Assembly (NCBI GenBank): GCA_030740435.1 | Contig: JASLXG010000091.1 | Location: forward strand, 1-33,269 | Direction: 5' to 3' | DNA length: 33,269 nucleotides | Source: Alphaproteobacteria bacterium | GTDB lineage: Bacteria; Pseudomonadota; Alphaproteobacteria; UBA2966 | Shown here: positions 29,447 to 31,568 of the stretch, piece by piece | Position numbering within the stretch: position 1 is the stretch's first letter | Layout: every line of letters starts with the position of its first letter | The notes under the pieces: generated by a model | What the model was told of the DNA's origin: nothing | Databases searched by the model: none | What the model saw: the letters and a program-made list of their open reading frames with translations, nothing else | Position numbers and translations under genes: made by a program

Positions 29447-29477
29447 AAAAAAAAGGCCGGGCTCAAAAGAGCCCGGC
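29447..29477 (-). terminator. Rho-independent terminator of the candidate small RNA
   Basis: On the minus strand a perfect 9-bp GC-rich stem (arms GCCGGGCTC and GAGCCCGGC, at 29469-29477 and 29456-29464) with a TTTT loop is followed by eight T residues (29454-29447). It could end a short transcript from the hairpin-rich region or readthrough from lysR, and it shields trmO from both. Confidence 0.92.
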
Positions 29478-29630
29478 AAGTTCAACAGGGAGGCAATACG
29501 TCTGGGAGACGTATCGGACCGGCAAAAATGCGCTCCGGTCCGGTTCCGGGTGTTGCGCCCGGAACAGAACGAATGCTGCGATGCAACATCCGCCGTGGCC
29601 TATAGATGGGGTTACGGGCGGCAAAAGACC
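29447..29630 (-). ncRNA. Candidate small RNA of stacked hairpins
   Basis: No gene fits this region, yet on the minus strand it holds abutting perfect or near-perfect hairpins: 29543-29565 (8-bp stem), 29515-29542 (8-bp) and 29496-29514 (8-bp, CCC loop), plus one at 29573-29589 (7-bp with one G-U) and a possible outer stem at 29590-29621. A strong terminator follows. Two CUCCC/CCUCCC motifs, one in the loop at 29504-29508 and one in the linker at 29488-29493, are complementary to Shine-Dalgarno sequences, as in several alphaproteobacterial trans-acting RNAs. The 5' end is estimated from an AATATA element near 29636-29640 and is uncertain. I could not match it to a known family by eye. Confidence 0.5.
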
Positions 29631-29648
29631 ACCATATATTGTGCAAAT

Positions 29649-29673
29649 CAGCTATGCGTCTAATGCATAGCTG
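29649..29673. promoter_or_regulatory. Inverted repeat between lysR and the candidate small RNA
   Basis: Perfect 9-base arms (CAGCTATGC and GCATAGCTG) with a 7-base spacer lie 15 bases beyond the lysR stop codon and just upstream of the estimated small-RNA start. It may be an operator or a weak lysR terminator (no T-run follows). Its spacer reads TTAGAC on the minus strand, a possible weak -35. Confidence 0.5.
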
Positions 29674-29688
29674 GGAACGGGTGCCTTC

Positions 29689-30579
29689 TCAGAAATGCCA
29701 CTCGGCCACTTTGCGGATCAAGAAATCCCGGAAAATTCCGATTCTAAGGGAATCACGCAATTCCTCGGGATAGACGAAATAGGTGTCGAATTGAGGACCT
29801 TCGAGGTCCGGTAATATCTGCGTGATGCGGTTGTTGCCCCGCACCATATAGTCCGGAATGGCGCCGATGCCGACGCCGGATTCGACGGCCAGCAGCAGGC
29901 CGTAGACGTTGTTGACGCGCAGCACCGGCCGGCGGCTGGCGGGATCCGCGGTACCGGCGGCGATCAGCCAGTTGACGTTGGCGATGTAGGACGGTGCCTC
30001 CTCGCCGTAGATGATCAGGCGGTGGTGGTCCAGGTCCTCAGGCCTTTGCGGCGTGCCGAAGCGCTGCAGGTATTCCGGCGCGGCGTAGACGTGGTGATGG
30101 AAGGTCATCAGCTTGCGCTGCACCAGGTCGGGCTGTACCGGCAGGCGCATGCGGATGGCGACATCGGCCTCGCGCATGGAGAGGTCGAGTTCCCTGTCGG
30201 TGACCACGATGTGGACGTTGATGTCGGGGTAATGCTCGAGAAACTCGCCGATGCGCGGCGTCAGCCAAGTCGAGCCGAAGCCGACGGTGGCCGAGATGGT
30301 CAATTCGCCGCTGGGCTTTTCCTTGGCCTCGGTAAGCAGCGCCTCGGTCATGGCGATGCGAGCCGACATCTCGTGGGCGGCACGGAACAGCGTCTCGCCC
30401 TGGGCCGTCAGCTTGAGGCCCCGGGCGTGGCGGTGGAAGAGCAGCACGTTGAGGTCTTCCTCCAGCGCCGCCACCTGGCGGCTCACCGCCGACTGACTGA
30501 GGCTCAAGAGCTCACCGGCATGGGTGAAGCTGCCGGCATCGGCAACGGCGTGGAAGATTTTTATCTTGTTCCAGTTCAT
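29689..30579 (-). CDS. LysR-family transcriptional regulator
   Basis: A 296-residue regulator. The winged HTH occupies residues 1-60 (KIFHAVADAGSFTHAGELL, SQSAVSRQVAALEEDLNVLLF), followed by a linker helix and a periplasmic-binding-like effector domain starting near residue 90 (GELTISATVGFGSTWLTPRI). The N-terminal helix and effector domain fit the LysR type that acts as a tetramer and binds a small coinducer, which is unknown here. It sits 17 bases after trxB on the same strand, so it is probably cotranscribed with thioredoxin reductase. A role in redox or sulfur response is only an inference. Confidence 0.9.
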   Translation of the reverse strand: MNWNKIKIFHAVADAGSFTHAGELLSLSQSAVSRQVAALEEDLNVLLFHRHARGLKLTAQGETLFRAAHEMSARIAMTEALLTEAKEKPSGELTISATVGFGSTWLTPRIGEFLEHYPDINVHIVVTDRELDLSMREADVAIRMRLPVQPDLVQRKLMTFHHHVYAAPEYLQRFGTPQRPEDLDHHRLIIYGEEAPSYIANVNWLIAAGTADPASRRPVLRVNNVYGLLLAVESGVGIGAIPDYMVRGNNRITQILPDLEGPQFDTYFVYPEELRDSLRIGIFRDFLIRKVAEWHF

Positions 30580-30596: not shown

Positions 30597-31568
30597 CTAC
30601 TCGGCCGCCGCGGCGGTTTCAGCAGCCTCCTTGGCGGCGACGAACTTTTCCGCCTCCAATGCCGCCATGCAGCCGGTGCCGGCCGCCGTCACGGCCTGGC
30701 GGTAGATCTTGTCCTGGACGTCGCCGGCGGCAAAGACGCCGGGCACGCTGGTGGCCGTGGAATCGGCCGCGGTGACGATGTAGCCCTCATCGTCCATCTC
30801 GACCTGGCCCTGGAAAACCTCGGTGGCCGGGGCGTGACCGATGGCCACGAAAACACCGTGTACGGCGAGCTCGCTGCGGGTTTCGGTCTTGACGTTGCGC
30901 AGCCGCACCGAGGTGACACCGGGCGGGTCTTCGTCGCCCATGATCTCCTCGACCACACTGTCCCATGCGACGTCGATCTTGTCGTGCTCGAGCAGGCGGC
31001 GCTGCAGGATCTTCTCGGCCCTGAGCTCGTCGCGCCGGTGAACCAGCGTCACCCGGTCGGCGTGATTGGTGAGATAGAGCGCCTCCTCGACGGCGGTGTT
31101 GCCGCCCCCCACCACCGCCACCTCCTTGCCGCGGTAAAAGAAGCCGTCGCAAGTGGCGCAGGCCGAGACGCCGAAACCCTGGAAGCGGCCCTCGCTCTCC
31201 AAGCCCAGCCAGCGCGCCTGGGCGCCGGTGCTGATGATCACGGCATCGCCGCTGTAGCACGCCCCCGAATCGCCTACGGCCTGGAAGGGCCAGGCTTTGA
31301 GGTCGACCCCGACGATGATGTCGTCCGCCATCTCGGTGCCCACGGCCCGGGCCTGGGCCTCCATCTGCTCCATCAGCCAGGGGCCCTGGATGACCTCGGC
31401 AAAGCCGGGGAAGTTCTCGACGTCGGTGGTGATGGTCATCTGGCCGCCGGGCTGCAGGCCGCGCACCACCAGGGGCTCGAGCCCGGCCCGGGCGGCATAG
31501 ATCGCCGCCGTATAGCCGGCCGGCCCGGAACCGATGATGAGGACCTTGCTGTGCTGGGTAACGCTCAT
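30597..31568 (-). CDS. trxB: Thioredoxin reductase
   Basis: A 323-residue flavoprotein that reduces thioredoxin with NADPH. FAD-binding GSGPAG is at residues 13-18, the redox-active disulfide CATC at 137-140, the NADPH-binding GGGNTAVEEAL near 154-164 with VHRRDELRAEK downstream, and the second FAD motif GVFAAGDVQD near 283. It has the short Ala/Glu C-terminal tail (KEAAETAAAAE) often seen in alphaproteobacteria. lysR follows after 17 bases. Confidence 0.96.
   Translation of the reverse strand: MSVTQHSKVLIIGSGPAGYTAAIYAARAGLEPLVVRGLQPGGQMTITTDVENFPGFAEVIQGPWLMEQMEAQARAVGTEMADDIIVGVDLKAWPFQAVGDSGACYSGDAVIISTGAQARWLGLESEGRFQGFGVSACATCDGFFYRGKEVAVVGGGNTAVEEALYLTNHADRVTLVHRRDELRAEKILQRRLLEHDKIDVAWDSVVEEIMGDEDPPGVTSVRLRNVKTETRSELAVHGVFVAIGHAPATEVFQGQVEMDDEGYIVTAADSTATSVPGVFAAGDVQDKIYRQAVTAAGTGCMAALEAEKFVAAKEAAETAAAAE

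Follow-up and report, generated by a model that had tools for sequence, protein, structure and literature searches.

A very probable gene for an unnamed small regulatory RNA switched on by the adjoining LysR-type regulator, in the trxB-lysR locus of an alphaproteobacterium

The window, a 33,269-nt stretch of an alphaproteobacterial genome, very probably carries on its minus strand a gene for an unnamed small regulatory RNA that is switched on by the adjoining LysR-type regulator. We consider it likely that positions 29596-29449 encode a stand-alone, trans-acting sRNA of the Shine-Dalgarno (SD)-blocking type, under the control of an LsrB/VtlR-type regulator and equivalent in position to AbcR and SorY. 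In rhizobia, Agrobacterium, and Brucella, AbcR is known for its control by LsrB/VtlR, and in Rhodobacter SorY is known as an sRNA of photo-oxidative stress; no link between the two was found in the open-access literature searched. The initial annotation had proposed a small RNA here and had overlooked both the trxB-lsrB/vtlR-sRNA locus, home of AbcR1/2 in Rhizobiaceae and of SorY-like RNAs in Rhodobacteraceae, and the LsrB/VtlR box in the promoter.

The predicted transcript comprises four stable hairpins in a row and, after them, an intrinsic terminator (Table 1). Three of the hairpins, of 8 bp each, adjoin one another directly with no intervening base (29565-29496), and all these elements lie on the minus strand where the initial annotation, made from the sequence alone, had placed them. 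This strand folds far more stably than shuffled sequence, as testified by a free energy of -87.3 kcal/mol for the 201-nt region 29640-29440 against -63.1 +/- 4 kcal/mol for its dinucleotide shuffles (z = -6.05, 0 of 200). For the predicted 148-nt transcript z is -6.8, with 0 of 500 shuffles as stable, and z is still -4.4 (0 of 500) when the terminator is left out. Pairing is less firm in the ensemble for H2 than for the other hairpins. The transcript, at first put at ~180 nt from position 29630, probably starts near 29596 and would thus measure ~148 nt. No conserved ORF extends over the hairpin region, in keeping with the earlier claim that no ORF explains it; just short TTG-start ORFs cross, with no sign of coding. 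Two CUCCC-containing anti-SD stretches had also been pointed out, in the H1 loop and in the linker, and both are predicted to be exposed in the fold ensemble of the transcript: the CCC of the loop is unpaired with p = 1.0 and UCCCUGUUGAACUU of the linker with p = 0.7-1.0, the leading GCC reaching just 0.33. The anti-SD sequence within the linker, CCUCCCUGUU, is common to SorX, SorY, and suhB/MmgR.

Table 1. Features of the sRNA locus, in window coordinates and in the order of transcription.
Feature	Position	Strand	Sequence and basis
trxB, thioredoxin reductase (context gene, conserved synteny)	30597-31568	-	NCBIfam TIGR01292, 404 bits
LysR-type regulator, LsrB/VtlR orthologue, predicted activator	29689-30579	-	Pfam HTH_1 and LysR_substrate; trxB neighbour
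Regulator dyad	29650-29672	-	AGCTATGC-ATTAGAC-GCATAGCT, core ATGC-N7-GCAT
LsrB/VtlR-type box	29645-29657	-	GCATAGCTGATTT, fits GCAT-N3-TG-N3-T
Predicted -10 element	29603-29608	-	CATCTA, by the conserved TATNTT block; predicted for this genome
Predicted sRNA transcript, ~148 nt	29449-29596	-	Start A29596 from promoter logo, end from terminator; fold z = -6.8
H4 (hairpin 4, 5'-most)	29573-29589	-	AUGUUGC-AUC-GCAGCAU, 7 bp, extended in fold
H3 (hairpin 3)	29543-29565	-	GUUCCGGG-CGCAACA-CCCGGAAC, 8 bp, N7 loop; fold
H2 (hairpin 2)	29515-29542	-	CGGACCGG-N12-CCGGUCCG, 8 bp; fold
H1 (hairpin 1)	29496-29514	-	AUACGUCU-CCC-AGACGUAU, 8 bp, 3-nt loop; whole ACGUCUCCCAGACGU
Anti-SD stretch CUCCCA, across loop and closing pairs of H1 (position given is that of H1)	29496-29514	-	ACGUCUCCCAGACGU; sequence and fold
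Linker, single-stranded, second anti-SD stretch	29478-29494	-	GCCUCCCUGUUGAACUU
Intrinsic terminator, hairpin and U-run	29448-29477	-	Hairpin GCCGGGCUC-UUUU-GAGCCCGGC (29477-29456), 9 bp; fold

The stretch 29600-29672 holds the promoter and the regulator box, in which the LsrB/VtlR box overlaps the dyad. Of 125 non-redundant intergenic regions between lysR and the core, 93 contain ATGC-N6-9-GCAT (1.6 expected from mononucleotide shuffles) and 35 the exact form GCAT-N3-TG-N3-T (1.9 expected). The latter is the LsrB/VtlR consensus, and in the abcR1 promoter of S. meliloti the box lies at -61 to -49 (PMC8844928). Alignment of 113 loci on the dyad gives GCAT-RGCTGNNTTTG, then TATNTT at +45 to +50 and a CA step at +56/57; with the predicted start taken at +57, the box of these loci would fall at -61 to -49, a suggestive agreement with the published S. 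meliloti position. The dyad is also present in the abcR promoters of S. meliloti and R. leguminosarum, and 10 of 24 RNA copies unlinked to lysR have retained it (0.3 expected).

This promoter bears on the alternative that the RNA is mainly lysR read-through, a 3'-UTR-derived product freed by RNase E, on the pattern of R. sphaeroides SorX, which derives from ompR-1. The RNA does lie on the same strand as lysR, 100-200 nt past its stop codon, and the best Rfam near-match of the window is SorX (RF02784; 38.0 bits over the full model, gathering threshold 46.6 bits), itself a 3'-UTR product. Yet a conserved activator dyad and a -10 element stand between lysR and the RNA, the dyad persists at unlinked copies, and SorY and AbcR1 have promoters of their own, all of which makes a read-through origin unlikely.

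In a genome of the same genus, the full 193 nt are 88% identical. More distant relatives retain chiefly a 3' module, made up of the hairpin ACGUCUCCCAGACGU, a few bases, CCUCCCUGUUNNACUU, and the terminator, and the hairpins ahead of it differ in sequence. The module turns up across the Alphaproteobacteria other than Rhizobiales, in most cases immediately downstream of the same LysR gene and often in the order trxB-lysR-RNA. Its core pattern was found in at least 119 stretches from named Alphaproteobacteria, with hosts that include Azospirillum, Roseomonas, Thalassospira, Kiloniella, Reyranella, Magnetovibrio, and many Rhodospirillales MAGs; 107 of 141 core loci lie downstream of an orthologue of the window LysR, and several others are near contig ends. 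A second sample, drawn class-wide with LysR rather than the RNA as its anchor, comprised 80 loci, with the exact core in 25, variants in many others, and trxB upstream of lysR in 64.

Over 94 lysR-anchored loci, the promoter-to-linker stretch has a median fold z-score of -3.3 (78% below -2), compared with -0.09 (4% below -2) for downstream control segments of equal length; it usually contains three to four hairpins, and at 73 of the 94 loci at least one loop bears a CUCC/UCCC motif. The H2 position commonly holds a hairpin of lineage-specific sequence, an H3-like hairpin, CGGGCGCAA, is present in some relatives as judged by eye, and a minority of lineages have an H4-like UGYUGC-nnn-GCARCA hairpin close to the 5' end. 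The linker motif CCTCCCTGT is nearly invariant. Compensatory changes in relatives were what the initial annotation had looked to as a check on the stems; in 57 aligned 3' modules, 12 of 14 pairs are substituted on both sides, including 6 of the 7 pairs of H1 and pairs of the terminator. The fraction of cells that are paired is 77.9%, against 70.2% in shuffled and 29-48% in slid alignments, and the covariation is 0.256, against 0.145 and 0.07-0.14, respectively. RNAalifold returned no consensus structure for this 57-locus alignment, and the named structure was therefore the one counted; the covariation figures cover the 3' module. The sequences of H2-H4 are specific to lineages, and aligned over the full length with MAFFT the 5' hairpins matched too loosely for covariation to be assessed.

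A covariance model, R1, has matches in 91 of 190 genomes of the class at E <= 0.001. At E <= 1e-6, 58 of 84 matches (56 genomes) sit 135-735 nt downstream of LysR on the same strand, 5 are within 12 kb of it, 10 are elsewhere, and 11 belong to genomes without an entry in the LysR list used; some of the loci counted with the model were also part of its training set. No strong match adjoins lysR in ~40% of the sampled lysR genomes. The RNA is missing from plasmid-borne LysR copies of A. brasilense Sp7, Tistrella, Microvirga, and Methylobacterium, with neither it nor a strict dyad downstream at L254 (A. brasilense Sp7 p2), L255 (Tistrella pTM3), L252, L253, and L257. The genome of the window itself has a second 3'-module copy at G000:C198:8414-8486 (L260; GCCTCCCTGTTGAACTTGCC... 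terminator), which scores 32 bits with R1, adjoins an apparent MmgE/PrpD-like gene, and is kept in the sister genome (L027), and a third, weak one at G000:C64:5193-5269 (28.8 bits).

Such weak partial copies, together with the differing sequences of H2-H4 among lineages, would be expected of a REP-like repeat cluster or of chance inverted repeats in which the terminator alone is functional. This reading is very improbable in view of the fold z-scores across the 94 loci, the fixed order of the hairpins relative to promoter and terminator, and the pair substitutions in H1; close repeat copies of the array are, moreover, absent from the genome. A cis-acting leader or attenuator of trmO, the ATG of which lies ~22 nt beyond the end of the terminator, is the least probable of all, as trmO follows the RNA just in the window and its sister genome, unrelated genes take that place in other genomes (arsR in Rhizobiaceae), and the conserved part is the upstream lysR.

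The stand-alone sRNA gene thus preferred occupies the position of two named RNAs. The window LysR is 49% identical to an R. leguminosarum protein annotated as VtlR. In Agrobacterium the gene order is trxB-vtlR-abcR1-abcR2 (PMC7486931), and in S. meliloti and R. leguminosarum it is trxB-vtlR-ar15-ar15-arsR. Two ar15 copies (97-127 bits) are present downstream of LysR in each of these two species, in Shinella, and in another Sinorhizobium; the dyad and the box were found in S. meliloti, R. leguminosarum, and Sinorhizobium K101, and the box in Shinella. In one Rhodobacteraceae-like family, 35 of 41 genomes have SorY matches. Among the 20 best SorY loci, 19 adjoin the LysR orthologue and the exception retains the dyad; roughly half of the loci checked have a strict dyad, at about -110 to -121 relative to the linker. 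The named organism Paracoccus pantotrophus has a SorY match in the same LysR-linked arrangement. The window RNA has good sequence similarity to the SorY-like RNAs, which model R1 recognizes with E-values of 2e-6 to 2e-9, two such loci being in its training set; similarity to ar15 is not demonstrable (best 13 bits). The three RNAs, AbcR, SorY-like, and the unnamed one, therefore share one locus and one promoter logic, and their common slot suggests that a single ancient circuit of regulator and RNA spans the class.

Rfam has no family for the window RNA: the whole window gave no match at the gathering level, which leaves the initial description of the RNA as undescribed in place. By the families' own thresholds it is not a member of ar15, SorX, SorY, or suhB, and it is built like AbcR and SorY. 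The ar15 model (RF02345, threshold 40 bits), which represents AbcR1/AbcR2 (alpha-r15) of Rhizobiales, found no match in the window even at E <= 5, whereas the same kind of search yields 97-127 bits in Rhizobiaceae. An ar15 scan of 190 genomes of the class gave zero matches, with just 18 candidates scored per genome and the positive controls also silent. The window RNA nevertheless has in common with AbcR1/AbcR2 the slot directly downstream of trxB-vtlR/lsrB, the dyad and LsrB box upstream of the start at an equal predicted distance, the M1 motif CUCCCA in a hairpin loop (GUCUCCCAGAC in H1, of which CCC alone is predicted to be fully unpaired), and, between this hairpin and the terminator region, a further anti-SD stretch. 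It differs in its linker, where CCUCCCUGUU stands at the position equivalent to GUUCCC, the M2 motif between hairpins 1 and 2 of AbcR, and in being a single copy with extra 5' hairpins, whereas AbcR1 and AbcR2 form a tandem pair. In Brucella, target repression by AbcR is mediated by M1 (CUCCCA), which lies in a hairpin, and by M2, which lies between hairpins (PMC5461406); the two exposed C-rich stretches of the window RNA match their positions. At two loci of one family (f43), L147 and L152, lysR is followed by two or more tandem RNA copies in which several hairpin loops carry CUCCC, as does a terminator-like loop of L152; the arrangement parallels the AbcR1/AbcR2 pair.

SorY (RF02651, Rhodobacterales) has the same 3' module of CCUCCCUGUU, NNACUU, and terminator, its own promoter and, in the sampled Rhodobacteraceae, the LysR neighbour and the dyad; it is shorter (83-position model), whereas the window RNA has four hairpins and CUCCC in a loop. 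The window scores 34.5 bits over the full length of this model, below its gathering threshold of 111 bits. That cut-off looks far too strict, as none of the 35 Rhodobacteraceae-like genomes in which the model matches over its full length passes it (best 78.6 bits). SorX has a similar 3' half and, in R. sphaeroides, comes from another locus, the 3' UTR of ompR-1, for which reason it was dropped as a resident of the lsrB slot. suhB/MmgR (RF00519; 34.8 bits, gathering threshold 41 bits) has the same CCUCCCU linker between hairpin and terminator and another 5' hairpin, and shares an Rfam clan with ar15. BjrC1505 was rejected at 16.4 bits over its full length, below gathering. Elsewhere in the genome, at G000:C102:8969-9081, there is a weak full-length ar14 match (35.9 bits, gathering threshold 58.8 bits). 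A near-threshold sul1 RNA match at L011 1423-1475 on the minus strand (35.3 versus 36.2 bits) is antisense to the hairpin array and is probably a mirror of its inverted repeats.

In the proposed mechanism, the LsrB/VtlR-type LysR encoded upstream would bind the dyad (29672-29650) and activate transcription of the sRNA. The CUCCCA of the H1 loop and the CCUCCCUGUU of the linker, predicted to be exposed, would then, by analogy, pair with the ribosome-binding sites of several mRNAs and repress their translation, probably with the assistance of Hfq. The mRNAs of uptake systems would be the likeliest class of targets, since it is on transporter mRNAs that AbcR and SorY act. In this genome, ACAGGGAGG-N3-9-ATG occurs at six real ORFs, two of which encode solute-binding proteins, one SBP_bac_8 and one LivK-like Peripla_BP_6. 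Over seven genomes, 9-nt complementary ribosome-binding sites showed no enrichment of solute-binding proteins, since these make up 6 of 24 target ORFs against 4 of 20 ORFs with a control pattern that was a single arbitrary choice.

A redox-linked role had been suggested at first from the neighbouring lysR and trxB. Support for it is indirect, in that SorY and LsrB are redox-linked in other species; for the window the link is weak, because its LysR has zero cysteines. Oxidation is sensed through cysteines by the LsrB of Agrobacterium (PMC11975290). A thiol switch is thus excluded in the window LysR, and another input is needed. Cysteines are likewise lacking in 110 of 204 aligned LysR orthologues, although C-terminal truncation of some matches could conceal a few.

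The chances are about even that a single ancestral sRNA gene gave rise to AbcR, to SorY, and to the unnamed hairpin-array RNAs of Rhodospirillales, Acetobacteraceae, Azospirillaceae, and others. On this view the gene would have been coupled to an LsrB-type regulator from the early Alphaproteobacteria onwards, and its promoter box would have stayed fixed while the body of the RNA was rebuilt hairpin by hairpin. Should one regulator-linked locus be common to AbcR, SorY, and the unnamed family, results obtained with each model would yield predictions for the others. Rfam would then gain a family that it now lacks and that is found in dozens of alphaproteobacterial families, and a conserved reporter promoter would make it possible to test what LsrB/VtlR senses outside Rhizobiales.
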